A stretch of DNA of 64,000 nucleotides. Source: Parietichytrium sp. I65-24A. Taxonomy: Eukaryota; Sar; Bigyra; Thraustochytrida; Thraustochytriidae. Below, one piece after another: positions 20,370 through 52,600 of this stretch. The number at the start of each line of letters is the position of its first letter. Position 1 is the first letter of the stretch. The position numbers were made by a program, and so were the translations under genes. The stretch is taken from contig BLSF01000023.1 in NCBI GenBank assembly GCA_012862575.1, positions 186,001-250,000 on the forward strand, in the 5' to 3' direction. The notes under the pieces were generated by a model. The model was not told the origin of the DNA and did no database searches. It saw only the letters and a program-made list of their open reading frames with translations.

Positions 20370-20611
20370 ATTCGTGTCTTCCAGTCTGTATCCGTCGGCC
20401 GGATGCCGGACGACTCTTTCCAGACTCGCTGGGACATAAATTACTCTCTCTCGATGTGTCATGCATCGCCCATCGAACCATTTGCAAACGCCTCTTCGAA
20501 CTTTCCGAGGCGCACGGCGAAGACATGCCGTTTAGCGTGGTCGCCGGAGGATCATCAACACTCCTCTCACACAATTACTACAAGTTGCAACACCCCGATG
20601 ATAACGTCTCC
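20370..20611 (-). repeat. Degenerate duplicate of the 3' end of the small membrane-protein gene
   Basis: On the minus strand this block aligns by eye with 20662-20906. Shared stretches are GACGTTATCATCGGxGTGTTGCA, GTGTTGATGATCCTCCG and CCACGCTAAACGGC. It keeps the end of the coding part (DVIIGVLQLV) plus 3' flanking sequence, but lacks the stretch encoding PFVGWFWAIV. It is therefore a partial, decayed tandem copy, not a gene. Confidence 0.75.
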
Positions 20612-20661
20612 GCAAAAAAAATTGAGACAACAGCTTTTCAAATTTATTTTAGATACTTCTT

Positions 20662-20906
20662 CTCATGACGGTCAAGCTGGCTGTACCCGTCAACCGGACG
20701 ACGCTTTCCTGGGACATACTCCGCTCTCTCGGAATGTGTCAAGCAACGCACATTCTGCATACGCCCCGTTGAACCTTCAATGGCGTATGATGAAGATGCG
20801 CCGTTTAGCGTGGTCGGCGGAGGATCATCAACACACCCCACACAATCGCCCAGAACCACCCCACGAAAGGAATTACAAGCTGCAACACTCCGATGATAAC
20901 GTCTGC
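20662..20906 (-). repeat. Gene-proximal unit of the same duplication
   Basis: This contains the 3' end of the small ORF at 20805-21059 and about 140 bp of following sequence. Identity to the distal unit is roughly two thirds by eye, so the duplication is old compared with the 12-15 kb direct repeat. Confidence 0.75.
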
Positions 20907-21390: not shown

Positions 21391-23544
21391 TTATTCGTAC
21401 TGTGGTGCCTCTTTTTCGGAACCACGCAGGCCATTTTGGTCTGAAGATTGGGCGGCTTCCTCTGTGGAAGTATTATTAGTGCTGGTACCGGCACTCTCGC
21501 TGGAATCGAATCCCGCAATGCTGACATCTTTGTAAACGTCCGCCTCTTCTTGTCGAAGGGTGAAAAATGTTCGAATATCGTTGTGCTTGTACGCTGCAGC
21601 GATGAGACCTCCGAGCATGGTACCGGCCATGACAGGAAGGCCAACGACCGCCGAGGTACCGAGGAAACCAAGGGCCATGTTGACCCCCATAGACGCCATT
21701 GCGGTCTCAAACACTGCATAGGCACCAATCGCCAAGCCACCAACGCCTAGGCCACCGACCATTCCAGTGACGCCGCCAAATGCGAGTTCTTTGGCGATTC
21801 CAGAAGTGACGGAAGCAATAGCCTTTCGATGCTTTTCCAAAAGGATAAGATTCATCTCGCCGGTAGCTGTTGCGAAAATCCGGTCTAGTAGATTCTTCAT
21901 CCCATATGTCTTATGCTCAAACATTTGCTCAAAGAGCTCTCCACTGTAGTCTGGCATGTAGGCACGAGTCGAAACGTGACAAATGTCAGATGGTCGCAAG
22001 GTCGCTGAGAAACCTTCCTTTTGAAGTCTCTCGTTGAGTCGGGATGCAACACTCTCGCGAAGTTCTTCAAGATCTTTGGGCATTTTGTTGTTCTCAAACT
22101 GCTTTTGAAGCGGGATTCCATCTTCCCAATCAAATCCGTCACCGTGAGTTCTCACCAAGATTACTCGCTTCGCAGCACGATTGTATTCTCCAGAACCTTG
22201 TTTGTAACCGTTCAGGTCGCAAATTTGTTTCACCATTTGAATGTAAGGGTCATAGAGCTCTTCATTCCCGTCTCCGTTGAACACGAAAACGCAAAGATCT
22301 ACTAGCTCCACTCCGCGATCTATTGCAACTTTAATCTCTTCGAACTTGAGCTGCCCAGAAGGCAGCTTAAGACCGATTCCGGGCGTGTCCCAGAACAACA
22401 CTCTCGCTTTCTTCCTTGAGGTTACCGTAGTCATCTCTGCTTTGCTTTCCTTCCCACTTGACTTGCCATCTTGATCTCTGTGCCCTTCTTGTCCCTCTCC
22501 CGGTGTGGTTGGGGTTGGTGGCGTCGGTGGGGAGGGCGGCTCACTCGAGCCAGCTCCACGCAAAAAGGACGGGGAAGTGGGGCTCTGCACGCTAGGCGAT
22601 TTGGGCAATTCTGATTTGCGGACATTTTCCGTGTGGAGGGTCATAGACTCGTAGAAATAGCTCTTGATAGAGACTGTCGAGCCGCCGACTGCGGAGATGT
22701 TAAAGTGCTCTACAGGAATCGATGTGCCGGTTGCCTCGCTCAGGAGCGCACGAAGCAACTGGCTCTTCCCACAGCTCACTTTTCCATAGAACACAACGTT
22801 AATTTCCAGAATGCTGTCGCTATCTGCAGCCAACCCTCGCGGCTTCTTTGCGAGCGCTTCCTCTGTCATCACAAAGCCGCCAGCCTTTAGGTACTCGCTC
22901 GCCTGCGGCGACACCCATCTCCCGCTCCACACATAATTGGCCACGTGCTCGCTGTTTCGCCTCAAGTACGAAAAGTTCGTCATGCCCAGCACCTCCACCA
23001 TCCTGTGTCGCATCGCAGCGCTGAGCCCCGTACGCTCCTCCTTCACCACCCACCCGCCCTCTGCGTCCAGGCTCGCATTCAAATTGTTGTCGTCCATTTC
23101 CGCGTCCTCAACAGCATTTTGACCGGCACTGCTGTCCATCTCAACGTCCTGGCTCACACCGGCATTCCCATTTGCGCCCATTTCCACGTCTTCTTTTGCA
23201 TTCGCCATCTTTCCCACGCGCTCGGCAATTACCTGTCCCACCGTCTCGTCCCACCGCACTTGCACGGCGTTGCCTACGCGCACACATCCCTCCGCGAATT
23301 CCACTGGCACGCCGTCCTCCTTACGCGTGCGCCACAGCAGCTGCACTTGCTCGCGCCCTTCCAGCTCCAAGCCCAGCACCATCTCGCGGTCCGCACTCCG
23401 CCTCGCCGAACCATCATGGCCGTATTGCAACACGTGTTCTTCTTTCGCTCGCTGCCACTCCTTCACGGTCCAACTCGACGTATTCGTCGGGGACCTCCCT
23501 TGACGGGTCCCCGCTGACCCTGGCTCCTTCTCCGACTTGGACAT
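21391..23544 (-). CDS. RTHGD-type GTPase-like protein A (unusual P-loop family)
   Basis: 717 residues from the ATG at 23544-23542. The frame extends further up only with non-ATG codons. G-protein motifs in order: G1 FYGKVSCGKSQLLRALL (about 252-268), a switch-like ISAVGGST (283-290), G3 FWDTPG (384-389), FVFNGDGNEELYDPYI (420-435), an RTHGD at the G4 place (465-469) instead of N/TKxD, and HVST (523-526) at the G5 place. A Pro/Ser-rich insert (about 305-375) separates switch 1 and G3. The C-terminus has a Gly/Ala-rich hydrophobic stretch (about 588-652), perhaps a membrane hairpin, then a Ser/Thr-rich tail. N-terminal 240 residues are acidic and unrecognised. A clear paralogue sits at 31664-34144. 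Nucleotide binding is inferred from G1 and G3; specificity and function are unknown. Confidence 0.75.
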   Translation of the reverse strand: MSKSEKEPGSAGTRQGRSPTNTSSWTVKEWQRAKEEHVLQYGHDGSARRSADREMVLGLELEGREQVQLLWRTRKEDGVPVEFAEGCVRVGNAVQVRWDETVGQVIAERVGKMANAKEDVEMGANGNAGVSQDVEMDSSAGQNAVEDAEMDDNNLNASLDAEGGWVVKEERTGLSAAMRHRMVEVLGMTNFSYLRRNSEHVANYVWSGRWVSPQASEYLKAGGFVMTEEALAKKPRGLAADSDSILEINVVFYGKVSCGKSQLLRALLSEATGTSIPVEHFNISAVGGSTVSIKSYFYESMTLHTENVRKSELPKSPSVQSPTSPSFLRGAGSSEPPSPPTPPTPTTPGEGQEGHRDQDGKSSGKESKAEMTTVTSRKKARVLFWDTPGIGLKLPSGQLKFEEIKVAIDRGVELVDLCVFVFNGDGNEELYDPYIQMVKQICDLNGYKQGSGEYNRAAKRVILVRTHGDGFDWEDGIPLQKQFENNKMPKDLEELRESVASRLNERLQKEGFSATLRPSDICHVSTRAYMPDYSGELFEQMFEHKTYGMKNLLDRIFATATGEMNLILLEKHRKAIASVTSGIAKELAFGGVTGMVGGLGVGGLAIGAYAVFETAMASMGVNMALGFLGTSAVVGLPVMAGTMLGGLIAAAYKHNDIRTFFTLRQEEADVYKDVSIAGFDSSESAGTSTNNTSTEEAAQSSDQNGLRGSEKEAPQYE

Positions 23545-24391
23545 TTCTCCTTCGCTTGACTCGACGTGAAGAAAACGACCGGCACGATCTGCTTCACAGT
23601 CAGTAGCGTGTGCTCTGCGACAGAACTGTGCCAACCCGTGAGACACTAATCGCGGTAGCCACACAGTAGAAGATAGCTAGGTGTACTCGCGTACACTTTC
23701 GAGTCTCGTGTACAGTACTCGAGTACCTGTGCCACGTTTCTTTTCTCCTGTGTCAATGAGTCAATGTGACCTCGAGTATGCTCTTGCTAGTGTTTCTACT
23801 AATAAAACGGTGTTGTTGAGGCTGGGAAATTGTTGGGATTAGAAAGCAAGCACTCCTAAAAGAAGGGTAAATGGCTCAAATGGCTCAAGCGTCACGCGGC
23901 TGGCTGGCTAGTGGTTGGATCTCGTTCCGCGACGTACACCGTGTTGGAGAAAGCCTCTGAATCCCGAAATTCGCTCTGTATCTATTGTGACCTGTGGTTT
24001 AGCGTGCATTGACTGACTGCGTTGACTGTCAATGTTCATCTCCCATGGAAAAATGAACAATTTGCAACTTTCCCAACTCTCTTTCACTCCAACTACTACT
24101 GTTGCCACTATCAGGATCAGACCTCCTGCGTTCTTACCGAGGCTTCTATAGGGCCAGGAACCGACAGGGAACCCAAAACTGTCGGCAGAACCCAAAAAGA
24201 ACCAGAAATTCACTCACACCATTTCAAAAACTTCGCTGGCACTCACTTTGTCCTTTCGTTCGCGAGGACACGCACTGCGTACTCGAGTACAGACAAGTAC
24301 TGCGCGTTTGCGTCCCAACCAAAACAACGACCGTCGCAGCTTTGGCCTCGTGAGAACGGGGAGCAAAACAAGCAAACAAACAAACAAACAA
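23545..24391. other. Divergent promoter region between GTPase A and the FIGNL1-like gene
   Basis: 847 bp. It contains a dense GTAC cluster at 23681-23727 with several GTACxCG and AGTACTCGAGTAC motifs, another at 24280-24300, and a GAAATTGTTGGGA-rich middle. A CAAACAAA repeat (24370-24390) directly precedes the FIGNL1-like ATG. No gene supported. Confidence 0.6.
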
Positions 24392-26446
24392 ATGGATGTG
24401 GGCATCGCGCGACTGCTGAGCGCTGCAGAGGACGCATCTCACTCGCGGTTGGCAGAGCAGCTCCTCGAGAACGGTCCTCGCGATGAAGCGTGGCGAGCAT
24501 CGCTGCGCAGCCTGAGGGTCGCTGGCGCTGCTACTGCTCCGGCTCGCGACCAAGGCAAGCGGAAGGGATGGGACAAGGTGGACTGGGCGCGGATCGCCAC
24601 CCAGCACCAGCACGGGGTTGCGAAGGAGCGACGGGAAGCTGCGGACGAGCATGCGCGCGCCGCACGGGACGAACGGGACGAATGGGACGCATGCGAAGAT
24701 GCGCAGAGCGACATGTTCCTGGCCGTGGCGAACGGAGCGTGGGCGAAGAGGGAGCAGCAGACGGTGCAAACGCCGGCGCAGGTTGATGGAATTGGAAAGA
24801 TGCAAGAGGCTCTCAAGGTGGGAGTGCCGCCACGAGGCAGCATGGGCGGTGGGTCGAAGAACAATGACTTGCAGACGCTTATCACACCGGAGAGGGTGGA
24901 GTGGGCGAACGGCGAGGAGACCGGCAAGAGAGCGAACTCTGGGCAGCCATCGATTGGAGTGAGGCGAATGGAGGAGAGCACTGATGCCGATCCGGAAGAA
25001 GACGAGCCCTGCGGGTTTGTGTCAGCTCGAGCTAGATTGGGCAGGGGTCGCCCGAAGTTTGGCAAAAGTTCAGAAAATGGCAGACAGCAGTCGAATAACA
25101 ACAGCTACGATGACGAGAGCAGTAACATGCAAAGCCGACCAGCATTTGGTCTCAAGCGGCGGCGTGGATTCAAACCACCTGCAAGAATCGGAGAAGAACC
25201 ACAGAATCAATCAAATCAGCCAAAATCACTATTGCGCCGGGGTGCGACTGGACCGTCTGGGCAACATGGCGGATTTCGCGCTGACAAGGCTATCAAAAAA
25301 GCTCTGGATCAGCAGAATGGAGGAGCAGATCAGGGAGATGGTGGTCTTCCGCCAGAGTACCTCGAGGAACCGCGATTACGAGGGCTAGATCCTGCGGTAA
25401 GTTGCTTGAAAAAAACGTTTGCTGATGGCTCTCGAAAGTTGTTTATTGTCACGACGGAACGGCTGACTGGAAATCCTCGTGTAGCTCATTGAGCGGATTG
25501 AAAGTGAGGTGCTACAGGAAGGCGATCCAATTACCTTTGATGATATCGCTGGTTTACGATTCGCAAAAGAGAACATCGAGGAAATTGTTGTGTGGCCCTT
25601 AAAGTAAGTCGCCCGGTGTTTGGCCGATGCCGAACTTGAAAAGTTATCTAACCTTGCTCCACTTCCTCGCACAGAAACCCGGAGTACTACACTGGCTTGC
25701 GACAATTACCGAAGGGGCTGCTTTTGTTTGGGCCGCCAGGAACAGGAAAGACTTTGATCGGGAAAGCGATCGCTCATGAGGTCAACGCTACGTTTTTTAG
25801 CATTTCCGCCTCTTCACTCACCTCCAAGTGGATCGGCGAGGGAGAAAAGACTGTGCGAGCGTTGTTTGGAGTTGCTGCGGTGAAGCAGCCTTCCGTGGTA
25901 TTTATTGACGAAGTGGACTCGCTTTTAACACAACGCAGTGCGGACGAAAACGAGTCTTCAAGACGGATCAAGACTGAGTTCTTAGTCCAGCTGGATGGCG
26001 CTGCAACCTCCTCCCAAGAACGTGTTCTGGTCATCGGAGCTACAAATCGTCCTCAGGAGCTTGACGAAGCCGCTCGGCGGCGATTTATCAAGCGGCTTTA
26101 TATTCCGCTCCCCGATGAGGTGACTCGAACGGCGCTACTGAACCAGCTGCTGCGGAAGAATGACCATTGCGTAACTGATGAAGAGCTCAAAAGGCTCTGC
26201 GAGCTCACAGACGGGTACAGCGGGGCAGATGTCACCAATCTGGCCAGGGAAGCCTCAATGGGACCGCTCAGGGATAAGATGCGGAAGAAATTGAGCTTTG
26301 GAGACACAGAAACTGCCCTTCGCCCAATCTCATTCCGCGACTTTGAAGTGGCCCTTAAGAGCATCCGAGCAAGTGTATCGCAGGATGATCTCACAAGCTA
26401 TATCAAGTGGAACGACGAATTCGGCACGCAAGAGTACGGAGGGTAG
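24392..26446 (+). CDS. Fidgetin-like 1-type AAA ATPase
   Basis: Meiotic-clade AAA ATPase; FIGNL1 relatives remove RAD51 from DNA in homologous recombination, while related members sever microtubules. Three exons: 24392-25396, 25485-25603, 25675-26446 (631 residues). Introns are 88 and 71 nt with GTAAGT donors and TGTAG/ACAG acceptors. Splicing joins GLDPA to [10 protein letters not shown] and then WPLK to [14 protein letters not shown], restoring the family sequence. N-terminal 330 residues are charged and disordered. The AAA core has Walker A GPPGTGKT, Walker [11 protein letters not shown], the [16 protein letters not shown] region and the Vps4-type C-terminal helix ([20 protein letters not shown]). 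[21 protein letters not shown] matches FIGNL1 better than spastin or katanin. The nuclear role is inferred from family. Confidence 0.9.
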
Positions 26447-27419
26447 AGGCAAGCTCTTTTCGAAGGTGACCTGTAGATATTATTTACCAAGTCTTGCACC
26501 TTTTTCCGCGCTGCCTCGACAAGTTCTCGTCAATTTATACTGTTCGCGAATGCCCTTAAAAAAAGTGAAAAAAAAAGGAAAACTGTAAAAGAAAAGTGTA
26601 AAAAAAAAAGGTGTAAAAAATGAAAGATGCAAATCCTGTCTCTTTTTTTCTTGTTTTTCGAGCTCCTCGAGCCACACGGCGATGCAACAGCTTGTCTCGA
26701 AGCTGCAGACGTTGCCAATCCCAACGTTGATGGTTCACACAGTTCACTGCAGGAACAAGCGCCAGCGCAGACACGCGTGCCAAATCATGCCAAATCGTGC
26801 CAGCCTTTCTTCCCAATTCTCTTGTTTTCACCCATCCTCGAACAAGGCGCACGCCTCGGACCTGGCCCTAAAGACCGCTTTAAGTAGCGGCTACCCGTGG
26901 CGCTCCTTACTTGTCTCGGGCAGCCAAGTACCAGTAGCTTGATAGCTTTGGTATGCTTTGGTCAGAGTGGTCAGTGGGGAATTCACTAGTTTACGTGTTT
27001 ACGAAACAGGTAAGATAATTGATACTCACAGCCAATACGTGTGAATTTTAGGGCCGGCATTGCCGACACACGCCAACAGGGGAAAATGGCAATGGGTTTA
27101 TGGAAATCTCGGCACTGCTCAGGCTTGCCATGCTGTCCATGCTCTCTGTGGCAGACTGTGAGAGTCTTGCGAGCCAACACCTTCCCCGACTGTTTGGGGA
27201 TGTAGACTTATTGGGAGGGGGAGATGAAAAGACAGAGAGACAGAAGGGGTTCATGGAGGAGACCCAACCATGGATAGGTGACCAAGGTAGCTCGCTTGTA
27301 GCGTGGGATTGACCTGAGTGACTTGAATGACTCAAGGACTTTTCTCGAATGCATTCGAATGCTTGCCAGCTTTTTTTGGTCACGGGCGGGAAAGCAGGTA
27401 CTGTTGCTTTACGCGCGTA
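26447..27419. other. Intergenic region with poly-A/poly-T tracts
   Basis: Several A-rich runs (26559-26620) just after the FIGNL1-like stop suit 3' end formation. At 27009-27053 an ACAG/GTAAGA...TTTTAG pair could be a 5' UTR intron of the next gene. A 70-codon ORF at 27100-27312 begins with a hydrophobic stretch (MEISALLRLAMLSMLSV) and might be an alternative signal-peptide exon; I could not connect it convincingly. Confidence 0.45.
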
Positions 27420-28535
27420 ATGAGGCGGCCTTGTGCCCTGACCCTGTTGCCGCTCCTGCTGGGAAAGTCGTGCTCATGGCGCACGTCTCTGCGCGAGGGT
27501 AGTGCGCTTGCGGAGAAGAAGATACGTAGCGAGCAAGCCTCTTGCTTCGATGCCGACTTTGCTCTTGTCGGAAAGTTTTCGTGGACGGTGGAACTTTGCA
27601 TGCTGGACTCTGACGGTGACGGGCAGACGAACGGGGAGGAGCTTGGCGACTCTGACTGCTCGCTAGCCGCGAAAGGGCATGCACCTGAGCAATTGTCTCG
27701 GGGATTTGCTCTTGGGCGCCCTTCTGCTTTAGGGATGGAGCGCCTTTCTGCGCTGCGCAGGTGGTGTTTGAGCAGTCCGCGACGGATAGCTAGGCGTGGC
27801 CGCGATTTGGCAGACTTTTTGGACCTCACAGACCCAACAACCAGGATTGTTGTAATTGTGACGCTGATCACCTTAATTTTACTCGTGCTCGGCTGCACCC
27901 GGTACTTCCAGACAAACTCGAAAGCGAATGTCGTGATGAGTGTAGAGAACCAGAAAGAGATGCAGCCCGCCCCCGTCAAAGTGTCTTCCCCTCAAGCAGC
28001 CCTGTCAGGTTATCGGCCTGCTTATAGTCCCGGAACAACAGTATCCCCAACACCAAATTATGGCGGCGCATACTCCCAGCCAAACACTGCATACAATTAT
28101 CAACAGCAACAAGCCAGACCGGCCGGCGCTGCTGCTGCGGCCTACGCTGCGCCAAGCCCACAACAACCTCAAACTCAGCAAGCTTATGCATATCAGCAGC
28201 AACAGCAGCAGGGGGCTCAACGAGCTGCTGCTGTTTATCAACAGTCAGCAGGTTATCAACAAGCAGCTGCTTACCAGCAAAGCCAGCAAAATCGATACAA
28301 CAACACGCAACAACAAAACTACAACCCACAGCCAGCACAAAACGCTTATACACCTCAGGTACCTCCGAGATCCAATGTCCGGCAGCAGCAGCAGCAGCAG
28401 TTTGCAGGCCGCGGTGCTACAACAAGTCCTGCAATCCCGCCTCGAACTTTTGGCAGAGGGGCAGGAGGTGGGGCAGTCGCAGGAGGAGCAGGGTCTCCGC
28501 AAATTCCCCCACGTCAGCGCGATTACCGCAGATGA
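27420..28535 (+). CDS. Temptin-like domain, single-pass membrane protein with Gln/Tyr/Pro-rich tail
   Basis: 371 residues from ATG 27420; an in-frame ATG at 27327 would add 31 residues and bury the signal-like segment. Residues 1-18 (ALTLLPLLLG) may be a signal peptide. Residues 43-80 (FDADFALVGKFSWTVELC, then DSDGDGQTNGEELGDSDC) match the second half of the temptin/Cys-disulfide domain, with its calcium-loop-like Asp repeats. One transmembrane helix (about 142-160, VVIVTLITLILLVLG) follows. The tail is low-complexity, rich in Gln, Tyr, Ala and Pro, with three IPPR/VPPR motifs that could bind SH3-type partners. Predicted topology is a short ectodomain outside and a long tail inside. The normal first half of a temptin domain is missing or lies in an unspliced upstream exon. 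Function unknown; surface adhesion or signalling is speculation. Confidence 0.7.
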   Translation: MRRPCALTLLPLLLGKSCSWRTSLREGSALAEKKIRSEQASCFDADFALVGKFSWTVELCMLDSDGDGQTNGEELGDSDCSLAAKGHAPEQLSRGFALGRPSALGMERLSALRRWCLSSPRRIARRGRDLADFLDLTDPTTRIVVIVTLITLILLVLGCTRYFQTNSKANVVMSVENQKEMQPAPVKVSSPQAALSGYRPAYSPGTTVSPTPNYGGAYSQPNTAYNYQQQQARPAGAAAAAYAAPSPQQPQTQQAYAYQQQQQQGAQRAAAVYQQSAGYQQAAAYQQSQQNRYNNTQQQNYNPQPAQNAYTPQVPPRSNVRQQQQQQFAGRGATTSPAIPPRTFGRGAGGGAVAGGAGSPQIPPRQRDYRR

Positions 28536-28707
28536 CCTGTTTCCATTGTTAAATCTCATTGTATAGTAAACATTTGTCATCATATTTTGTCGTCCCAAAA
28601 CCCACCGGAAAAGCTTATTCTGAAAGATCGCGGCTGTTCCTCCTTGCAGGAAACGAGAACAGATTAAATAAACATTGGGTTTTTGTGAGTGCTCTTGTGA
28701 ATTTAAA

Positions 28708-29670
28708 TTATGCAAAAATTGGGGTAAATGCCTTCATGTGCTGAGAGTATACCTCTGGAGCGTTGAAGCGCTTTCCACAGTCCAGAGAGGAGATTTCTTT
28801 CATGTCGCCGTCCTCGAGCTCAAAACCAAAAACATCGGCGTTCTCGTCCAGGCGTTTTGGTTTAGTAGACTTTGGGATCACAGCAATGCCTTGCTGGACA
28901 GCCCATCGCAGGAGGATCTGAGCTGGCGATTTGGAGTATTTCTCTGCAAGCTTTATAATGACCTTGTTCTCCAAGAGACTATCGCTTTTGTCTTGGCCCA
29001 GCTCTACGTAAGAAAGGGCGCCAAAAGAGCTGTATGCGGTGACTGCAATCTTGTTGTCGTGGCAGTAGCGGACGAGGTTTGCCTGCGCATTGTAAGGATG
29101 GAGCTCCACCTGGAGGACAGCAGGGCGGACCTTGCAGTAGGAAAGGACGTCGCGGAGCAGCTGAGAGTTGACGTTGCTGCACCCAATGTTCTTCACAAGT
29201 CCTGCCTTCTGGAGCTCCTCCATCGCTTGCCAGGTTTCCTGATATGGCACCAAAATCTCTTCCAGCTTGCCTTCGTTCTCGTCGAACACCCATTCTGGAG
29301 GGTATCGCTTGTCGAAGGGCACGAATTTGAGAGAGATCGGGAAGTGGATGAGGTAAAGGTCGATGTAGTCGAGCCCCAGGTCCTTCAGGGTCTTTTCGCA
29401 TGCCTCGCGGACGTGCTCCTTCTCGTGGTAGGTATTCCAGAGCTTGGAAGTCACAAACACTTCCTCGCGCTTGACGAGGCCTTCCTCGATGGCTTTGCGT
29501 ACGCCCTCCCCGACCTGGACCTCGTTTCCGTAGTCACACGCAGTGTCGATCAGGCGATACCCTTGTTTGATGGCCTGGTACACGGTGTCGCTGCAGTCGT
29601 CCTTGCTGATCTTCCAAGTTCCAAGCCCAACTAGGGGCATCTTGTCGCCGCTTGCCAACGTGAGGGACAT
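28708..29670 (-). CDS. Aldo/keto reductase (xylose/aldose reductase-like)
   Basis: 320 residues from ATG 29670-29668; an upstream in-frame extension lacks homology and starts at a later-looking codon. This is an NAD(P)H-dependent reductase of aldehydes and sugars, and cytosolic (no targeting signal). The full family order is visible: GDKMPLVGLGTWK, the catalytic tetrad Asp42 and Tyr47 (LIDTACDYGNE), Lys76 (VFVTSKLWN) and His109 (LYLIHFPI), then IGCSNVNSQLL, LQVELHPYN, and the cofactor motif IPKSTKPKRLDEN. Length is typical (about 310-330). The C-terminal FNAPEVYSQHMKAFTPIFA resembles yeast-type xylose reductases. It is convergent with the temptin-like gene; only about 170 bp separate the stops. 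AATAAA at 28667-28672 could serve the plus-strand neighbour. Exact substrate cannot be told. Confidence 0.92.
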   Translation of the reverse strand: MSLTLASGDKMPLVGLGTWKISKDDCSDTVYQAIKQGYRLIDTACDYGNEVQVGEGVRKAIEEGLVKREEVFVTSKLWNTYHEKEHVREACEKTLKDLGLDYIDLYLIHFPISLKFVPFDKRYPPEWVFDENEGKLEEILVPYQETWQAMEELQKAGLVKNIGCSNVNSQLLRDVLSYCKVRPAVLQVELHPYNAQANLVRYCHDNKIAVTAYSSFGALSYVELGQDKSDSLLENKVIIKLAEKYSKSPAQILLRWAVQQGIAVIPKSTKPKRLDENADVFGFELEDGDMKEISSLDCGKRFNAPEVYSQHMKAFTPIFA

Positions 29671-31663
29671 CTTCAATGAGGGCTTTCCGAGCGCTGCTCC
29701 TGTTCGACTGGTGCCAAACGAAACTGAGATTATCAAACTGACTTTTGTGAGAATAAGACCGATTGCGAGCCTGGCAGTGAAACGAGTTGCGGGTCTGCGT
29801 CAACGCAAGAACGCAATTTACAGTGTCAGTGAAAACTATATCTTTTTTGTTCTTTTGTCTCGCAGGAGTAACGAAGAGCGCGAGGGTGGGGATAGATGGG
29901 GATAGTGGGAATAGTGGGGATAGCGACGATGGGGATGATAGGGATGGTGGCATGCACTTCAGGCACTCTACTCACCGGGAGTAGAACGCAATAGAACGAG
30001 CGACTAGTGTGAGTGGTTTCCCGTAGGTCATGAGTGCGTGAGTCTCTGCCAACCTCTCATACCTCTCATGCTTCTCACATCTTCTCACACTCACACCAGA
30101 GTATGAGTCTGTAAGTGACCAGCCAAAAGCGCTTTGCAGCCCTTTTTTCCGTTTGTGACGTAACGTAGCACTCAGGGTGTTCAATGCTCTGGTCCCGTCA
30201 TGGCCTGGCGCGCCTCCTGGCCATCGTTTTGGATCGTTTTGGAGGCAACTCTGACGAAAAATGACGAAAAACGAAAAATGGAGATGCTGCAAGCTAGCTC
30301 CAAAACTGAGACCGCAAGGTTTGTGGGATCATTCGGACATCGGGAAGTGCCTGGCAAGCTTGGGCTTTCCAACAAGGATTGACATTGACATGCTACAAAT
30401 CGGCGAAGCAGTGCCCGAGATCCGAAGATCTTGGCAGGTGAACCGCACGTGTCCCCCGTCAGTCACTCGAGAACTGTCGCGAGTACTGACAGTGAGTACT
30501 GGACTGCGGCACTTGGAGAGTGGGAGGGACAGTGCGCTTGCCACGCGTTCGCAGAACTGAAAAATTCGCGATCTCAACGCCTGGCTGCTGCCTGCCTGGC
30601 TAGACTGTGCGCTTTTCAAGATCATAACTTCAGAACTCAGAATAATTTAGAATTGGAACCTTCATGGCGGCCTTTTGCTCGGCAAAGCGTTGGTGTCTTG
30701 AGCCCAAGTGTATCCAACCTAAAGTGAGTCACAGCCACTTGGCTCCATGCGCAGAACTCGCCAACCGCAACATGAGGGCGCCGTCTCGAGCGGAAACAAG
30801 CCGCGATCATCATCTTCACGATGACCATGCAAGTCGACGAGCAACGCAACACGCCAGCGACCCAGTCCGACTCGTGCTAGTAAACTCTCGGCCATCTTCT
30901 CGCCATGCAAAGCCAAACTCTCTTCACAGAGCTCGCATTCCATTGGCACATTCGCAGTACGAGGCCACCAGAACGACCAGCAAGCTGCACAACCAGCAAA
31001 CCTACTCCAACACCAACACGCTCCTCCAGTATCAAAGCAGCATCCTCGAGTACCCAAAGCATCGCGCCATTCTCCGCCGTGATTGGAAACGTCGAACACA
31101 AACATACACGAACCCAGCTGAACCTGCCAGTGATCACATCAGAACCCGGACGTCGTCTATAACTCGAACTCTTTGACCTCACATATCCTCACACAGCCAT
31201 AACCTTTGGAACTTTCTTTCCAGCGCTCTCCTACGACGCTCGCTAACTGCAACTTATCCGGCGCACTCTTCGCGCACTGTGGCTACTGTGGCACTGGCAC
31301 TACTCTCCTCATCACAATCATCACATCAGAGATCGATCATCAGAGACATTCAGAGACCATCAAGACAGCACAGACAGCACAGACAGCACATACAGCAGAG
31401 CCTGGGGCAGCTAGGCGGTGGATTAAGAGTGCTCGAGGACACATTGGAGCCGGCGTACGCGGCACCTGGCGCGCGAGGCGTGGATGACTGAGTGACTGAC
31501 TTACTGACTGACTTACAGAGTGAGTGACTGACTGATCTGCCGGTCGAAGAAGTGCGCACGAGTGAGTGTCAGGAGGGTGCCCGGCGCGTACAGTGCTTGC
31601 TGAAGTGTCCTCGAGCGAGTGAGTGAGAGAGTGAGTGAGTGAGAGAGCGAGTGGCGGCGATCG
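29671..31663. other. Divergent intergenic region, no gene supported
   Basis: About 2.0 kb between divergent genes. Only overlapping short ORFs are seen (largest 170 codons at 30664-31176 plus, low in recognisable features). Repeats include GGGGATAG units at 29885-29940, a GTACTGACAGTGAGTACT motif at 30482-30499, CAGCACAGA units at 31367-31395, and dense GACTGACT/GAGTGAGT repeats (31485-31655) that form the immediate leader of the membrane GTPase. Confidence 0.55.
31485..31655. repeat. GACTGACT/GAGTGAGT leader repeats
   Basis: Imperfect tetranucleotide-based repeats directly upstream of the ATG at 31664. Similar GAGTGAGT runs occur in the leader of the EH-domain gene (62246-62275), which suggests a shared leader style rather than a specific site. 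Confidence 0.6.
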
Positions 31664-34144
31664 ATGGAGTCGGCGGCGCAGTGGGTGCTGTCGCACGCGC
31701 AGCGTTTGGCGCTGGCGCACCTGTCTTCGTCCAAGTCTGCAGGGAAGGCGGGGGATGGGTCCGCGGACAGCGGCGCGGACAGCGCGGCCGAGCGCGCGCT
31801 GTCCAGGGCGAGACTGTTGGCGTGGAACGTGAGGAAGCACGGGCTCACGATGGGCCTGACAAGGTTCGGCGCCACTGCGGGGCTGCAGGCGACCGCGGAC
31901 GCGGTGGTGCGCTCGCGCGCTGAACGCGCGGTGGAGGCCGGGCTCGCGGTGTGCGCAGCGGCGTGCGTGGTAGTAGCGCTGTCCGCGCTGGACGCGGTGG
32001 TGCCAGTGGCGGTGAGAGTGGCAGAGCAGGTGGGCTGGGGCTGGACGCTGGCGCTGGCGCTGGTCGTGGCAGGGGCGGTCAAGTACTACGCGGCGGGGAT
32101 GCAGGGCGGCGCGCCGGCGCAGGCGCGGGTGGTGTACATGGCGGTGGTCGTGTTCGCGGCGCTGCAGCGGCACGTGATGATCTATGCCGCCGGACTCGGA
32201 GTGCTGCGCCGCTCGGCTGCGGGATGGAGGGATACCGGCGATGAATGTCTTTCGCGGACGCCGGACGGGAATTGCGACGGGCTCCCACAGGTGTGCGGCC
32301 CTGGGGAGGAATGTGACGGTGCGCTTGGCGACGGATTGGCCTCGCAGATGGGTCCGGGGGTTTACATGGCGAGCTGGGGAAGCGCAATGCTCGTTGGTAT
32401 GGCCCTTCTTGCGGCGGCCGTGGTGCATGGGAAGGTCATGTCGCGGTATGCGCTCCTGGCCAAGTTTGCAGCGACGTGGCTGCTGCTCTCTCCTGTGGGC
32501 TGGCTTCCATTGTTTGATCTTGCATTCCGGGCTGTTCATGCTGGGCTCTGCGTATTCGTCGAGCTGAACTCAGAGGCAGCGCCGGACGTCGTCCTTTGGG
32601 TCATCTGCTGGGGGCTCGTTCACAAATTGGACGGTGCGGTGGATGCTGCCATCAAATACATGTTTGAAGGAGAAACCGATCTGGTGGAGCTTGGCATGCT
32701 ACTTCTTAGAGGTTCATCTCTTTTGATGGAGACCTTCTCCTTTGAAGATCTAGTGATTCCGCCCCCACGTGTCCAGCAGACCATCGTTTGGTACAATCAT
32801 ATTGCGTTTGCAGGCACCGGGTTATGGGTGATCAAATGCTGTGTGGCGCGCCTTGCCTACGGCAACTTGCAGGCAATCGAAGCGGCAGGCATGGCGGCAG
32901 CGACAATCGGTGTCGCTGCTGCAATGGCGGCCTTGATATACAGAGACCATCACCGTTTCAAGGTGATGGACCGCGCAGAATTTTTCTTTGGTGTCAAGAT
33001 GGAGTATTTCGAGCAATTACGCGTACGAGTACAGTACGAAGAACTTCGCCAAAAGCTCTGCGCGACAGTGAAAATCCGCCCTCCAAACAGCGACTTCACG
33101 TGTATGTTTTATGGAAAGGTGAGCAGCGGGAAAACGCAGCTCATAAAGTCACTTCTTCACGAAGCAGAAAGCCCGGATGCAGATAAAGTGCAGCATATTT
33201 CCGCGATCGGTGGCTCGACAAAAAACTGTGTAAAGTATATTGCCTGCAAATTGGGCAGCGCACAGGAAACGCAAGACAATGATGACGAACAAGCTTCACC
33301 GGAACAGCGCCTCATGTTCATGGACACCCCAGGTTTGGATGAGTACAGCGATGGAACGCGCGCACCGCACGAAAAGGACAGTGCTGCGGATGGTGTTGAG
33401 GCTCGGATATCGATGGGGGAAGGAGATTTTTATGTGATCGTTTATAACGGCGATTCCGACGAAGATCTCTACACAAGGTTCCTGGAAGCTGTGAAGGCTG
33501 TCTGTCGTAAGAACAATTATGAGGAAGGCAGCAAAGAGTACCGCCAAGCCTGGCGGAGGGTTTTGCTTGTTCGCACCCACGGCGACTTATTTGGCTGGGG
33601 TTTGGAGCCACCGAAAGATTTCACCAGAGGTTTTGAATTTTGGCCACCAAGTTTACGGAGTCTGTTGGAGGTCACGCGCGACCGTCTCAACGAGCACGTC
33701 CTGTCCAAGAATGGCTTCGATCCAGACGTCCAAATCACAGACCTTTTTCACGTTTCTACCAAACCGAAAACAATGTATGGCGTTCACGAGCTCTTTGAGC
33801 GAATTCGGAGATTGGCCTCTGGAGACGAGGGCAAAATTATCGCGAAGGAGAGGCAGGTCGCGTATCAAGAAGCGATCATTGAGGGCCTTTCCCAGGAGCT
33901 AAATGCAGTTGCGGCTACCATTAATCGCAACTTCATATTTCGCAAAGTGCTCAACATTGTCAAGATCGCCCTCGACCCTTTCCTCGCTTTTCGGCAGCAA
34001 TCTTTTTCAACATCCTGGTTGGAACGGTATCGGGCTGAAGAGAAGCTGTACACCAAGCTGCTGACCAAGATAGAGGCTGAAAAGGACAAACTTGGGATCA
34101 TTCGACAGGATTTGAGTTTGCTGAAAGAATCCACCGGGAACTAG
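31664..34144 (+). CDS. RTHGD-type GTPase-like protein B fused to multi-pass membrane region
   Basis: 826 residues, single exon, ATG start. The N-terminal half has several hydrophobic segments (about 92-112, 127-142, 155-175, 235-256, 264-300, 308-325, 375-395, 405-425), with a Cys/Asp-rich loop (about 190-225) between them. It then carries the G domain: G1 FYGKVSSGKTQLIKSLL (482-498), HISAIGGSTK (511-520), G3 FMDTPG (552-557), IVYNGDSDEDLYTRF (592-606), RTHGD (637-641) and FHVSTK (695-700). These match GTPase A at 21391-23544 motif for motif, so they are paralogues. The C-terminal region is helical with basic coiled-coil character (about 785-820). Probably a membrane-anchored GTP-binding protein. 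Nothing in the visible motifs ties it to septins, AIG1/GIMAP, dynamins or Era. Compartment and role unknown. Confidence 0.78.
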   Translation: MESAAQWVLSHAQRLALAHLSSSKSAGKAGDGSADSGADSAAERALSRARLLAWNVRKHGLTMGLTRFGATAGLQATADAVVRSRAERAVEAGLAVCAAACVVVALSALDAVVPVAVRVAEQVGWGWTLALALVVAGAVKYYAAGMQGGAPAQARVVYMAVVVFAALQRHVMIYAAGLGVLRRSAAGWRDTGDECLSRTPDGNCDGLPQVCGPGEECDGALGDGLASQMGPGVYMASWGSAMLVGMALLAAAVVHGKVMSRYALLAKFAATWLLLSPVGWLPLFDLAFRAVHAGLCVFVELNSEAAPDVVLWVICWGLVHKLDGAVDAAIKYMFEGETDLVELGMLLLRGSSLLMETFSFEDLVIPPPRVQQTIVWYNHIAFAGTGLWVIKCCVARLAYGNLQAIEAAGMAAATIGVAAAMAALIYRDHHRFKVMDRAEFFFGVKMEYFEQLRVRVQYEELRQKLCATVKIRPPNSDFTCMFYGKVSSGKTQLIKSLLHEAESPDADKVQHISAIGGSTKNCVKYIACKLGSAQETQDNDDEQASPEQRLMFMDTPGLDEYSDGTRAPHEKDSAADGVEARISMGEGDFYVIVYNGDSDEDLYTRFLEAVKAVCRKNNYEEGSKEYRQAWRRVLLVRTHGDLFGWGLEPPKDFTRGFEFWPPSLRSLLEVTRDRLNEHVLSKNGFDPDVQITDLFHVSTKPKTMYGVHELFERIRRLASGDEGKIIAKERQVAYQEAIIEGLSQELNAVAATINRNFIFRKVLNIVKIALDPFLAFRQQSFSTSWLERYRAEEKLYTKLLTKIEAEKDKLGIIRQDLSLLKESTGN

Positions 34145-43710: not shown

Positions 43711-44008
43711 AGGAGGGGCGAAATCTGATCTTGCGCGCCGTGGTCGCGAAACGGTGCGTGCCGGCGCGGACACTTGACGTTTGTAGGCTGAGAGGGGAAG
43801 AAGTGGTTGGAAGCAGAGGAGGTTCCTTGGCGGAATGCGGGTTCTGATTCGGACTGTTCGTGTGTCTGGAACCCATCGCTTCAGCCAACTGGCGTCCCGC
43901 CCAGCTCTCGTTCTGTCGCGGCTGAGCGCAACGACGCGCGGCAGCGACGTCTCTCGTGGTGTTGCCGAAGGCTATTGCTGTTCCAAACTTTTTGCCAGAA
44001 CCCATTCC

Positions 44009-44111
44009 CCCAGAACCAGAACCAGAACCCAGAACCCAGAACCCAGAACCCAGAACCCAGAACCCAGAACCCAGAACCAAGAACCAAGAACCCAGAACCC
44101 AGAACCCAGAA
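44009..44111. repeat. 7-bp minisatellite (AACCCAG)n, about 14 units
   Basis: Units of AACCCAG with some AACCAG and AACCAAG variants over about 100 bp. Both strands stay open through it, producing artefact ORFs with periodic Gly-Phe-Trp or Asn-Pro-Glu text. No coding role. Confidence 0.92.
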
Positions 44112-47100
44112 TTTCAATTCCTCTTCTGAACGGATTTTATAAGGAAAGGAACCGAAGGATTCAAAAAGAACTCGGTTGTAAGACGACCTTATTGGGTTCC
44201 CCAGACCGAGTTAATGTAACCGTTTTCAGTGATAAGGCAGTGCGAAGAGCTGGAGGACCACAGACAGCTCTGCCAGCATCCACAAGAGGAAGGCTAGTAG
44301 CTAGAGAAGCAACTCGAAATTGACGTGAGACCCCTCGGTGTCTCTCACAGCCCCTACTAGCTAGCTAACCAGTTTTGTTTCCATGACGCCAAGCAGGAGA
44401 GCATCATCCCCTCACAAGAGCAAGAGTGCTAGTACCACTGTGTGATACTGGCCCAGGCTCCGAGCTACCTGTTTCCGTATCAGTTTGGAATCAAAAGAGT
44501 TTGGTAGGCTTTTTAAAAAGGCGCGAGAAGGAGGGTAGCTTGCGATCCGAGAACTCCTCTGCGGGCGGGAGAAGGAAAGAGCCCCGACGTGAAGGAAGTG
44601 TCACAGTCAGTCAGTTCATGGTGTAGCAGAGAGGAAGGAAAGAGGAAAGAGGGGGGCGACGCGTTTTCTCCCTCGAGGGAAGAAGGACGGAATGCGTTCT
44701 GTTTGGTCTGTGTTGTGGTGGAAGGAGAGAGAAGCTCTCGAGGGAAACATTGATGCAGAGATGCAGTTATTTAGAGAGGGTGTGGAGGAGGAGAAAACCA
44801 GAGAGAAATCTTGAACAAGTTGGTGGAATTCGGAGATGTGAAATGATGGTACAACAGAACGAAGAACGAAGAACGGAGAACGGAGAACGAAAACGTCAGT
44901 GAAAAGAGAGCAAAAGTGTGCATCCCGGATGTGAGACCCCCTGCCATTCTGTTACAGGACCACGTGCACAAATTTTCTTTCTCCGGATCAAATCCCCGGG
45001 CTTGGGCAGATCACACCGAGATGTCTCCCCGGGTGTCACGAGAAATAACAGTTGACAATGTATTGAGAACGAAGTGAAACGCGGGCTGCGAGTTGCCGTG
45101 CGAACTTCGTGGTTTAGGTGCGCGGGTCTGTTAACAAGCAATCTCCATTCCTTGAGCCATTGTCTGGTGCTGATTTTTTTCGCTGAGAAAAATTCGGAAT
45201 TCGGAATTTCCTAAGAACTAGCTCGGTGCTTCCCACAGTCGCCCAGTCTGTCTCCCACTTGTCAGTCGGTCGACTACTTCATTTCCGCTTCCTGGCCTAC
45301 CTCTTTGTTTTCTCTCTCGGCTTAAGTAACATCCAAATCCGTCTCCCCTCTTCTCACAACTGAACACTTTTGCACTTTTACGAACACCAACATTGCCCCT
45401 TCCTGCCCCCTAGACTCCCTAGACACACGACCAGTCTAAGAGAAATTACCAGACCGTAGTTGAGGCATTGGCTGCGAGTGGTTGACTGTGACAAATTTTT
45501 TACCCAAGGGAAATGGGGATAGGCAGAGGAGATTGGAACCACATGAGTACGGCGCAAAAGCACGGAAAGCGCAAGTGGCAAGCAGGTTGAGGGAAGCAGA
45601 GGGCAGGCGAATAAAAACTCAAAAAACTCACAATCACAGTAAAAAGTGCGCGAAGTTGGAACGTATTCTCCGTCAGCTGACACAAGGGAAGGGCATCCCA
45701 GTTTCCATTCTCCTTCCAGTAGCTTTCCAGTCACGTCCTCTTTCCTCTCCCGCTTTTCGGGCAGCATTTCACGCAAGATTACGCGGATTTCGAAGCCCTA
45801 CGGGACGTCGTAGACGGAGGTGGGTGTGTAACTGGGCGGGCGAGCCAGGCGCAAATAGTTTCGATCTTCTTCTCCTCTTTGTTTCACACCACTGTTTGTT
45901 CGTTTGTTTGCTCTAGAGTTTGTTTCAGAAGAAAATTGGCCACTCTGCCACTCTGCAATAGTATAGTTAGATAGGAGTGATGTTCTTTTACTATTATCGT
46001 TCAATTCGAATTAAAATCAACGAAAACTGAAAGACTGGGTGGGTGGAGTTGGGGGTGGAGTTCGTTCGCAGACCCGACGAAACAATCATCAGAGAGGCAG
46101 AAGGAAAGTTTGACTGCAAGAAGGTTCTCTCCGAGGGGTTTTGCACTACACTAGCAAAGTTAATTACAAGAGAAAAACGTGCAGTCAAGAGAGTTCTCCG
46201 ACTAGAAAGTTTTGGCCTGGAATCACCATCGATCGCAACTTTCTGGGGAGCCTGTGTTGTGCCCCGTTTTTTTTCTTTTTTCTTATTGCTTTGTCGTCTT
46301 CTTTCTAGTAGCTTTCTAGCTGGAGAAAGAAAGGAGCTCAGAACACGAGGGGCGACGAAAAAAGGTGGTTCATTATCACAGCGACAGATCTCCCTCACTC
46401 GATGTCGATGAATGAACAATTTTCCCAACCAACTGGTAGTCGGTAATATCGGTGCAAGCCACGGTTACAGTTGCTTGCGTTGCGCTTAATGAAGTAGTTG
46501 CGAATGCGGCAAGTCGCTGGGAGCGTGCGCACGCAAAGCTGCGAGTCGTTGCCCCACAATGATTGAACCAACGGTGGGCCAGCAACGCATGCGAGTCTGC
46601 GAGTCTTTCTTTCTCTCAGAGTCTCTCTCTCTCACGCTCCTTCCCTCAGAGTCTCTCGCTCCATCTCCGAAGCCACTCCCTCACACATTTATCTACCGCG
46701 ATCCACCGCGTCAAAGTGCCGGGAGACAGGACGCCCCTAGCAAGCTCGGTGGATGTGGTAGCAGTCGGAGGCTGACAGTTGTGTTGTGCCAGTAGTGCCG
46801 GTGGCAGTAGCACTATGTGGGAGCCAGCTTCAACGGCGTTTCTGCGCCGATCTGTGGTAGATGTGTGTGGAGCACAGGAGAGAGGCGAGTTTTGATTTTT
46901 TACCTGCCACCAATTACACAGGCGCCATAGCGTGCCAGAGCAATCAGAGAAAGCAGAGACAGCACCGAGTCATGTTGCAAGGCGACGGTTGCAGGAGATT
47001 GCGAGTTTTCGCGCCTCCTACTTCTCGCACTCTTCGCCCACTCTCAAGACTGCCGCGAAGACACACTGTGTCTCTCTTCCATCGCGGTTGGTCGTATTTC

Positions 47101-48224
47101 TTTTGGCTTGCTAGTGATGGTTATGGGTCGCAGGACAAACGAGTGTCGTGAAGGTTGGTTGATGGGACGGGATGAGTGAGTGCGATTTTGCGCAGGAGGA
47201 AAGGATGGGAGGAGTCTTCTGGAGATCTCTTTTGACACATTTTGTTTCGCATTTGTCTTTGTTTCGCCAAGGAGATGCTGACGAAAAGCCGAAGGTATCA
47301 TAAGTGATAAGTCTCCTTCCCCCAAGCGACGCGATTGCTTGCCACAGACTTGTGCCGCCGAAGCAGATTTGGCAGCGGTCCAAAACTCCTTGTTTCCTTC
47401 TTTCCGCAGAGCACGCAGCAACATTGCTGACTGCTGCAGAATTCGCTACTTGATCAGAGGATTGAACGACTTTTTTACAGGAGCCGTCCGGAGTAAGCCA
47501 TGTTGCCAACGAGACCGGTACTGAGTAGTCAGTACTCGAGTATTTCGCGCGCTGTGGAAGATATTGTGAGTTTTTCATCAATCAATGCTCTCAAGAACAG
47601 AAAACGAAACAAGCATGGTTTCGCTCGTGACATGAACCAGGACCCTAGTACTAGTACACCAGTCCCCCGTGCACCATGCACACCAGGCTTTGCGCCTTTC
47701 CGAAATGGTAAAAATTGAGCCTCCCTTTGCTCTTTTTTCTTTTCCTTTTGGATATTTGGATATGAGCTGCGCAAAAGTTGCTGACTGATCAGTTGCAGCT
47801 TGCAATCGATGATCTCCCACTGCCAGGCACTCGCTTAGCTTCTAACAGCTGGGTTAGCAGCTGGGTCTCGTGAAACAATTTTGTTTTTGCGCTGTTGGCT
47901 CTGCAGCTCAACGTTCGCTCTTCCGCCTTAAAAAGACGCTTTGGACGCCATTCTGGGACGCCGTACACCACAGTTTCCAGAGCACTCACTCCAAATCATT
48001 GAAACAACAACAACGCACAAGTGCCTCCATGAACAGTGCTTCAGGGCATCGCGAGAACCCTACATATTTCTGCATCGTCCTCTAAAATGTGCATGTTTTC
48101 GACATGTTGCGACTCACTCTTCCTTTGCCGGCGGGCACGATATGGTTCTGGGGATGGTGTACTAGTACTATGCCGCGCGCAAAACAACATAGCCTGCTCA
48201 ATTCAATGTTCATTGATTTCATGA

Positions 48225-49667
48225 ACAAAAAAAGAAAAGAAGAGAAGAGAAAGCTGGCTTGACCGTGACCTCGAGTTTGAAGTATGGATTCGGTGCTTTG
48301 TTGTCTTGCCAGTGCTTCTCATCGAAACAATAATTCTTCTGGCGCTCGTTTTCTCACTTCCTGGGTGCGATAGTGTGAGTATTAAAACTTAACTACAAAT
48401 TTTCACTATGTTCGTCGATCTTGCCTTGCCGGATTTGCTAAGTCTATGGTCAACTCTTACTCTATCCCTCTTAACTCTAAAGTCTGACTTTAACTGGCGA
48501 AACTCGTCTACTGGCAACTAGCAACGAACGAAACTAGTAAGCCTTCGCTGTGTTATTATTCAGAACATTGGTAGAACGAAAGAAGGAAAGAAAGAAAAAG
48601 ATCTTGATCAGCCTTCGTGTTTGAGTTTTATTGCCAAGTTGGTTTGGAGAGTGGAAATTACCGATACTGAGTGCTAAATATACTGTGAATCTGAATCCGG
48701 ATCGAGATTCGGTGCAAACTCACTTATATTTTTAAAGCTGAGCCTCCTCCCTCTTGATGCCTTTACTGCGTCTTACAATGATACATACGCCATGATCGCA
48801 TGTTCGAATCAGCATTAGGGAGAAAAAAAGTGTTCGAAGACCGTAAGGTAGAACGTAGGCTCAGAAAGTCTCTCTTTTCCTTTCCCCTCCTCCTTCTCTT
48901 TCCGAAGGTTCAACCTTCCAATTAACCACAGTATGGTATTGGGGGGTGGAGTAGCTAGCTAGCTACTTTAGCTCCTCCACAGACCATCATGAAAACCTCT
49001 TCAACGGCTCAGATTTGCAACCGTTCAGACCTAGTGTGATCATTAGGATGGAAATATTAATAGTCGGATAAGAGGGAACAACACCACTCTCATAATCTTC
49101 CAGTAAAGGTTCGCCTTTCCTAGGTTACACTTGGCTCACAATTGTGAATTTCTAGGATGATTAGACAAAGCGATAGACGTGACTACCGACGGAGGGGTCA
49201 ACTGTTCATTGACAAGTTGCACACCAGCCAGGCGGGCGCAGATGAAAACTGAAAAGCAAAACACGTTCATTTTCCAAATGAAATGTTGATGGGTCAACAA
49301 TTCGCTGTGGCGCCCAAGCGGCTTCTGAGAAATTAGGAAATTCTCAAAGATTTACCGTGCATCGTCACGCTGGCGAAGCCTGGACTAAACAAATATGCAA
49401 ATAATGAGTACAAACGCACAGACGTGTTGTAACTTGCCAGTGCCAAACTCAGGTGAAGCTATTAGCACTCACAGTTATTGACCCCCCCTCTCACCCTCTC
49501 CCCTTCCCCTTCTTACTTCCCCTCCCCCCAAAAAAAAATTAATACTGCTCCATATGGTTCAAAGAAGCCTCCTCTGCTTCATATGAAAAGAGTCTCTAGA
49601 GTCAGTCTAGAGTGAGAAAATTGTTGACAGAGAGAGGTTTGCCTTTCTTTCATCAGAAATTCAGAAT
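48225..49667. other. Gene-free stretch, part 2: no ORF above about 60 codons
   Basis: The emptiest part of the window. Visibly more A/T-rich than the genic regions. It contains a perfect 16-bp palindrome (48951-48966), a GAAGGTTCAACCTTC inverted repeat at 48905-48919, and pyrimidine- and A-rich runs (49485-49545). A GTTCGAATC at 48802-48810 looks like a tRNA B box, but no tRNA fold surrounds it. Confidence 0.55.
48951..48966. repeat. Perfect 16-bp palindrome
   Basis: GTAGCTAGCTAGCTAC reads the same on both strands. A shorter related run (ACTAGCTAGCTAACC) lies at 44356-44370. Possible protein-binding or cruciform site, or chance. Confidence 0.7.
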
Positions 49668-52600
49668 TCAAGGCTCTGAATAAGTATGCCCTCTTGATGT
49701 AAGAGAGGATCTCAGTGGGGAGGCCAAGTCAGGAGACTCTGTTGGAGTGGCAAGTGGGGTTTGGCCAACTTGAAATACAGGTGGTACTAGTACCAGTACC
49801 CATGTCATATATCTCGGATTGGTAGAAGATTGGTCTTGTTTCAAACCAAAAGTTCCGATCTGCAACCAACAACAATTTCTCTTTTGCGCATCATATTTTT
49901 TTGACAAGAAATCGAGTATAGCTGTGGCCAGAAGACAAGGTCTCACTTTCAGTCCCGATGCGCCGATACCAGAAAAAGGTCAACACTCTCTACTGCGCAT
50001 CGGTGTTTTGTCTGGATGCCTTCGCATTCTGGTACTGACGGTGAGTATCCTTGAGAGGAAAAGAGTTTTTATCGTTTGAAATCAACTGAGCACAGAAGAT
50101 AGAGAAGCGTCACAAGTCCTGAGCCGCATTTGTTGGGCTAACTTCCGAATCATCGTTTCTCAGCGACAACACATTTGCATAAGGCCCCCGTGTGGCCTGA
50201 GCTATGTTCGTTGAGAATAGTTGACACAGTTCGGATAGGTTGACTATTGAATGTGATTCTTCTGTCGAGCAGCTAGTGCGGTAAAGGTGAGAGCTACTGT
50301 CAGTAGAACTTACGCTAAGGGATACGCATTCTTATATCTCGGCTACAGGATCCCGCATACGCTGTAACGGTACCGCCCTCTAGCAAACTGCAAACGAATA
50401 ATTTGGTACGAAACCAAAACTGCCACATCCGCATTCCTTCCTTCTCCCGAGCGGCGGAGAATTTCGCAAAGCTATCTCTTCCGAGACAGGAAAAGGAAGG
50501 GCTAGTCGCACTACCTTGCCTATCCCTTTATAAGATCGGCGAATATCGTACTACGCCTAGGTGTACGTACACTGGCAAGATATCTGATTGTTTTACGACT
50601 AAGACTTATGAATCTTCAGAGAGAAGAAGTTGGCTTATTTTAGTGACACAGAGTGGGTGGCTGAAATTAGTTAGTCGCAGTCTGTGACAAAAAACTCGGG
50701 GGTCCTTCAAGGGGTCTTTTATGTATTGGCTTGACACTGGTGCTTAGGGGTCAAATTTATCGGTACGGTTCTGGGTGCCACTAAATAAAACATTGATGAG
50801 GTTCTAATCTTGCTGTCGAAGGGCTGCAATGGCCAATGTGTGAAACTTCGAAATCGTCATCAATTCGCGGATCTGAGCCGTATTATGGCTCTATATTGTC
50901 GTACAGAGGGAGAAGGTAAGATCTGAGATGCGGAAGGCTACGTGACTGATGGCATTTCGGGTAGAAATGCGATGGCCTATCGGCAGAAACAGAACACCAA
51001 GTTTGGATGGCTTTCTGTCTGCCACTGTCTCTACTTGCCGTATAAAATAAAGACAGGAGGAAAAAGCAAAGGTGCTATGCTATCAATTAAACCATAGTTT
51101 CTGGGTGTGGGTGGGAACGAAAACTCGATTGCATCCTTGCAAACACCACAGAAATATATCTCTACACTCTGGTGTCCTCGGCACTATCTTTATACACTTA
51201 CTTTGTGCTTTTCTTTCTCCCTCGATCTTAATCAATAAATGCTCACCAAGTCGGACATTGACTGCCAAATAAAAATAGTTGAGCAAAAGGTGCTTGGCTG
51301 AAGCGCACCTTATCTCGTCTCATCGCTGCGCCGTACGCCGGAAAGGTACGAAAGGGTTCAAACTCGGCGCAATTTGGGTTTTCACAAGCTGCCGTGGGGA
51401 AGTAGAAATGTTCTTGGGGATCGAAAACTTACGTTCCAGAGGCGAATTGACTGTCGGGTGTGCTGCGTGTAGGCATGTCTCAGATTGTGTCGGCGAAGGT
51501 ACTGTACTCAGAGTACTCAGTACCAGTCCCGCCAACAGTCACTTGAGTTCCTCAGGTTCGGAAATTGGAGGCTCGATTTCCTTCTCAGAGTCCAACTCAT
51601 TCGCGGAATCGTCTCCGTCGACACTCCCGGCGAGCAATGGATTCTCGCCGTTCGGTGGTGGACGAGCGATGGATTCTGGAGGGTCGCGTAGCCGGCCTCG
51701 CCTTCGGGCCTTTCGGCCTTGGAAAGCGTTCAAGCTGTGAACAACACAGATTCAATATTTCACCGCCAGGTCCAACCCCCGGCACACTCGACACATTCGT
51801 TTTGCGTACTAGTACTCACCGTCTGTGATGGAGCACCAACTGTGTTATTTGCAACACGTGCAGTTCCCCCCGTCTCGAAGTATATCGAAGTGTCAGTCTG
51901 CAGTTCCCTCCACATCTAATCTATCTTTGTGTCTTGCCTGGTCTTCTTCTTTTTCATCTTGCCCAATCAAGAAATTAGCTATTCAAAAAGCCTCGATTGA
52001 GGGGTCACTGCCAGATTGTAAGACCTTGGGATAATTCTAGAATTTGCAATTTTCGTAGGCCCTGAATTGTGAACACCGGTGAAGCAATTGAAAGCTGTTT
52101 TGCGTTTGTCATCTGTTTTTAAAAAATAAAAGCATGTGCTAACCTCCCGAAACAAGACGCCTGAGCTGTGATCGTGATTCTCCCGAAAGCAGTTGAGAAA
52201 CTTTCTATGAAAATCTTTCTTTCTCCTGAGTGTTGTCCTTTCCTCCTTCCCTCTTCCCTGATAAATAGCTGTGAGTACTACTATTTTCTGTATGCAAGCG
52301 GAGAACTGCTACTGCCTTTCGATAGAGCGAGGGGGGAGAAGGCTAGAGGAGCCCTATCACCACGGGTAAATGCTAGAAGTCGAGCTATGTCGGCAATTAG
52401 GCGGCACGGGCCTGTCAATGGAGGTTGAAATCGGAACTGCAACCAAAAATGGACGGTTTCGAGGTCTTTTCGTACACGAGTGCATCGTACCGTACACTCG
52501 CAGTACGCAGTACCGTAGGGCAGCTTTGCAGGAGGAGGCGAAATAAACGTAAAACAGAAGCCTTCTTCTTCGGACTCCGTGCTTTCTGTGACTGGAGTTG

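Follow-up and report, generated by a model that had tools for sequence, protein, structure and literature searches.

An old pair of divergent paralogous GTPases with a T-H-G-D form of the G4 motif in Parietichytrium sp. I65-24A

The window analyzed here (the whole 64-kb stretch of contig BLSF01000023.1) carries two related genes, gene A (21391..23544, minus strand; protein of 717 aa) and gene B (31664..34144, plus strand; protein of 826 aa), both of which were open from ATG to stop in translation. The first-pass annotation had placed both open reading frames at these positions and in opposite orientation, and both statements held; its distance of "within 8.2 kb" is replaced by a measured gap of 8.1 kb. 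At least three genes lie between A and B: a fidgetin-like AAA ATPase with a Vps4_C domain (24391-26446, plus strand; short apparent GT-AG introns, judged by eye), a gene encoding a Temptin_C domain, then a hydrophobic segment, and finally a long tail rich in Gln, Tyr, and Ala (27327-28535, plus strand), and an aldo/keto reductase (28711-29799, minus strand; 186.8 bits). Because at least three unrelated genes separate them, A and B do not form a tandem pair.

Gene A and the AAA ATPase gene stand back to back on opposite strands with their ATGs approximately 0.85 kb apart, and a divergent promoter may therefore be common to both. Adjoining the 3′ end of A, positions 20471-20904 contain two families of direct repeats (101 nt, 76%; 31 nt, 94%) with a spacing of 273-295 bases, within a 262-aa open reading frame that had no Pfam match. 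Elsewhere in the window, Pfam identified a sodium/hydrogen exchanger, a Methyltransf_28 protein, a TRP-like ankyrin channel, and an EH-domain protein, among others; these genes and the AAA ATPase with its apparent introns identify the window as eukaryotic. Few large open reading frames were present over a long stretch (44000-56000), at the start of which lies a tandem array of CCCAGAA (44009-44111).

All motifs listed in the first-pass annotation were common to A and B and occurred in the same order: YGKVSxGKxQL (residue 253 in A and residue 483 in B), ISAxGGST (283 and 512), DTPG (386 and 554), NGD (423 and 595), RTHGD (465 and 637), and HVST (523 and 696). The two proteins aligned over 354 columns with 29% identity (BLASTP, 118 bits, E = 1e-31), and when B was shuffled 500 times, A scored at most 24.6 bits. 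In the pair alignment, the conserved blocks coincided with the G motifs. Identity at the DNA level was only 47.6% (260 aligned codons), and different codons were used at 62 of the 101 identical degenerate residues. Low DNA identity together with these codon differences points to an old pair under purifying selection at the protein level and not to a recent duplication. Judged from their sequences, A and B are clear homologues and old paralogues. The DNA pattern NGDxxExLY-x33-RTHGD, which runs from the end of strand 4 to G4, had exactly two exact matches in the window, one in A (22138..22278, minus strand) and one in B (33446..33586, plus strand), with 0 expected by chance; no third copy was found within the 64 kb.

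The G domain of A comprises residues 242-587 (21784..22821, minus strand), as delimited by the alignment with B and by hhalign to Der/Era-type domains (probability 96%). It is preceded by an N-terminal region with no Pfam match, and a long Pro/Ser-rich insert separates G2 from G3 in A, whereas B has no such insert. C-terminal to the G domain, residues ~588-650 (21595..21783, minus strand) form hydrophobic, Gly-rich segments with hydropathy peaks of 1.4-1.9, a possible membrane hairpin.

The layout of B, read from its translation and hydropathy, is different: approximately ten hydrophobic segments are followed by the G domain and then by a helical C-terminus. The predicted polytopic region covers residues ~95-425 (31946..32938, plus strand; hydropathy and loop composition, no Pfam match), and the G domain covers residues 474-751 (33083..33916, plus strand), as supported by BLASTP to A and by a Pfam match to MMR_HSR1 in the soluble part of the protein. 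A loop with four Cys residues lies between hydrophobic segments 3 and 4 (residues 175-235; 32186-32368, plus strand). Since the number of hydrophobic segments is even, the N-terminus and the G domain would lie on the same side of the membrane, presumably the cytosol, with the Cys loop on the opposite, presumably lumenal or outer, side.

In Pfam searches, A (24.0 bits) and the soluble part of B (22.4 bits) scored just above the gathering threshold of MMR_HSR1 (PF01926; 21.9 bits), and whole B scored under it (20.3 bits). The first-pass annotation had proposed a family search and named AIG1/GIMAP, septins, and IRG as families that might hold the pair. Placement in MMR_HSR1 was obtained, whereas membership in the three named families was not: neither A nor B matched AIG1/GIMAP (PF04548, gathering threshold 27 bits) or IIGP (IRG, PF05049) at E up to 1, and for Septin (PF00735, gathering threshold 26.2 bits) A had no match and B remained far under the threshold (11.8 bits for the whole protein, 13.5 bits for the soluble part). 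The sequence features of TRAFAC GTPases, G1 GxxxxGK[ST], the G2 Thr, and G3 DxxG, were all present and in order in both proteins.

The A-B profile matched a set of 36 bacterial GTPase domains with a probability of 96% (hhalign), compared with ≤2.5% in 40 column-shuffled controls; B alone matched weakly (35%). The 36 domains were collected by searching one bacterial phylum with the AIG1 profile; the matches were long frames with partial profile cover, and they are apparently generic GTPases. The profile match to Der/Era-type domains, together with the weak A model described below, upholds the initial reading of A and B as paralogous P-loop GTPases. Alignment by hhalign of the A-B profile to two GIMAP fragments gave no signal and no match at G4. 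A and B are most likely divergent eukaryotic TRAFAC GTPases that are tied to membranes and work as GTP/GDP switches.

The structure prediction proposed at first pass was obtained for the A domain, and the resulting AlphaFold model was weak (pLDDT 54, pTM 0.54; two-sequence input); that of B (pLDDT 46) was too poor for use. Both models were poor because the alignment held only two sequences. In the A model, strands and helices followed G-domain order; RTHGD closed strand 5 and HVST closed strand 6. VIA-align of the model returned mostly P-loop GTPases at Z scores of 5.8-7.3, values that may reflect just a common arrangement; Toc34/33 and GIMAP2 appeared at Z scores of 5.9-6.7, level with other GTPases. 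A Foldseek search with the A model yielded nothing at E ≤ 0.001; most of its hits were unrelated folds, and GIMAP2 ranked fourth (E = 0.09).

No relatives of A or B were found in viral contigs, GTDB genome contigs, phages, or plasmids, nor by a search of seven genomes with the A-B profile. The DNA pattern NGD-x39-RTHGD occurred in 4 viral and 14 genome stretches, which is about the chance expectation; these stretches were rejected as relatives, their translations being unrelated and tblastn giving no convincing match. Sequence searches of the PDB with A and B found no credible relative, and the top profile match was a Toc34 with a non-significant E value (0.35).

P-loop GTPases usually read the guanine base by N/TKxD (G4). 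The location proposed at first pass for RTHGD, between G3 and G5 at the place of G4, was borne out: in global profile alignment to the bacterial GTPases, LVRTHGD fell on VLVNKWD without gaps whether the A-B pair, A alone, or B alone was used, and in the same alignments G1 fell on G1 and GGST on AGTT, also without gaps. This agrees with the strand 5 position of the motif in the weak A model. The further statement that RTHGD stands in place of N/TKxD was not sustained, because only one of the four G4 positions departs from the consensus. RTHGD is an Arg followed by T-H-G-D, in which T, x, and D fit the usual motif and Lys to His is the only change; the guanine-reading Asp is retained in both proteins.

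The same His is found in known GTPases. According to their PDB sequences, G4 is FTHKED in human GIMAP2 and LTHAQ in pea Toc34 and Arabidopsis Toc33; the PDB sequences confirmed the query stretches used for these motifs, except for one residue of the GIMAP2 query outside the motif (V for A) and the first residue of the Toc query, which the match did not cover. GIMAP2 has a high affinity for GTP (PMC8201404), and GDP-bound structures of Toc34 and Toc33 (1H65, 3DEF) are listed in PMC11594714. In a survey of guanine-bound structures, 43% were without NKxD (PMC11594714). In SpoIVA/Era and Ras work, Asp was the main G4 residue for base specificity (PMC7952092). No mention of an RTHGD motif was found in the literature. 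Because the Asp is kept, because the His also occurs in the guanine-nucleotide-bound GIMAP2 and Toc34/Toc33, and because so many guanine-bound structures are without NKxD, a changed base specificity, as suggested at first pass, is not indicated by the sequences, and we see no good reason to expect it.

We consider it probable that A and B belong, as old paralogues, to a divergent eukaryotic TRAFAC lineage of the Era/septin/AIG1-Toc type, and that they act as membrane-held, guanine-reading GTPases of the switch-or-scaffold kind. The motifs would then serve as G1 (GKVSxGK[S/T]), G2 (the Thr of GGST), G3 (DTPG), G4 (THGD), and G5 (ST[R/K]). Guanine would be read by the conserved Asp of G4, with the His substituting for the Lys positioned above the base. 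Protein A would probably be held at the membrane by its C-terminal hydrophobic hairpin and B by its polytopic N-terminal domain; the G domain of B would face the cytosol. The G domains may dimerize or shift conformation at the membrane in the manner of GIMAP2 and Toc34, so that each protein would act as a GTP/GDP switch or a scaffold. GIMAP2 has been described as a membrane-held GTP/GDP switch or scaffold (PMC8201404), and Toc34 has been described likewise (PMC12973003).

Inheritance of the His at the second G4 position, with A and B inside the AIG1/Toc (paraseptin) family proper, would account for the TH shared with GIMAP2 and Toc34/Toc33, for the presence of Toc and GIMAP2 among the VIA-align rows, and for a membrane anchoring that resembles that of GIMAP2 and Toc34; the non-significant best PDB profile match also falls on Toc34. 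However, PF04548 did not match A or B at E up to 1, yet ordinary bacterial GTPases score above the threshold of this profile, the pair of GIMAP fragments gave no G4 match in hhalign, and the likeness in TH may be convergent. We regard membership in that family as unlikely. Degeneration into pseudo-GTPases, in which nucleotide binding is weak or absent and the proteins serve as membrane scaffolds, is a still less probable explanation. It is favored by the Lys to His change at G4, by Thr where G5 usually has Ala, and by the low family scores, but both proteins retain an intact G1 (with GK[S/T]), G2 Thr, DTPG, and G4 Asp, and it is the G motifs that form the blocks conserved between them.

A distinct GTPase family in which RTHGD alters or relaxes base specificity seems very improbable. 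The two paralogues, although divergent elsewhere, agree fully in RTHGD and the residues around it, which argues that the motif is under constraint, and the usual G4 residue is Lys. Against such a change in specificity, the Asp is kept, and it is this residue that is involved in the specificity changes of SpoIVA/Era and Ras (PMC7952092); G5 in A and B is STR/STK, without an acidic residue such as that in SxE of SpoIVA; and GIMAP2 has a high affinity for GTP despite its THKED (PMC8201404). A membrane GTPase family restricted to a protist lineage, whose invariant RTHGD would change base preference or hydrolysis, is given equally little weight.

As old TRAFAC paralogues, A and B would add to that class two divergent GTPases with a predicted link to membranes, one of them (B) with an unusual N-terminal polytopic domain. 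The His form of G4 (T-H-x-x), known in GIMAP2 and Toc34, now appears in another divergent eukaryotic pair in which the Asp is kept. Should the family prove to be lineage-specific, it would offer a useful way to test how far the G4 Lys is needed.

Compared with MMR_HSR1 and Era-Der GTPases, A and B are alike in G1, the G2 Thr, DTPG, the register of G4, and strand order, but they have THGD instead of NKxD and additional predicted membrane regions, and their motifs are spaced more widely (G1-G3, 70-132 residues; G3-G4, 80-84 residues) than the comparison medians (47 and 65, respectively). Septins show a weak likeness to B from G1 to G3 (soluble part), whereas G4 in A and B is THGD. GIMAP2 shares T-H at G4 with both proteins and has a C-terminal double hydrophobic region comparable to that of A; in contrast, A and B lack a Pfam AIG1 match, and the hydrophobic region of B is N-terminal. 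Toc34 and Toc33 have Gln where A and B keep Asp and gave no significant sequence match, but they resemble the pair in being membrane-anchored GTPases with T-H at G4 (LTHAQ).
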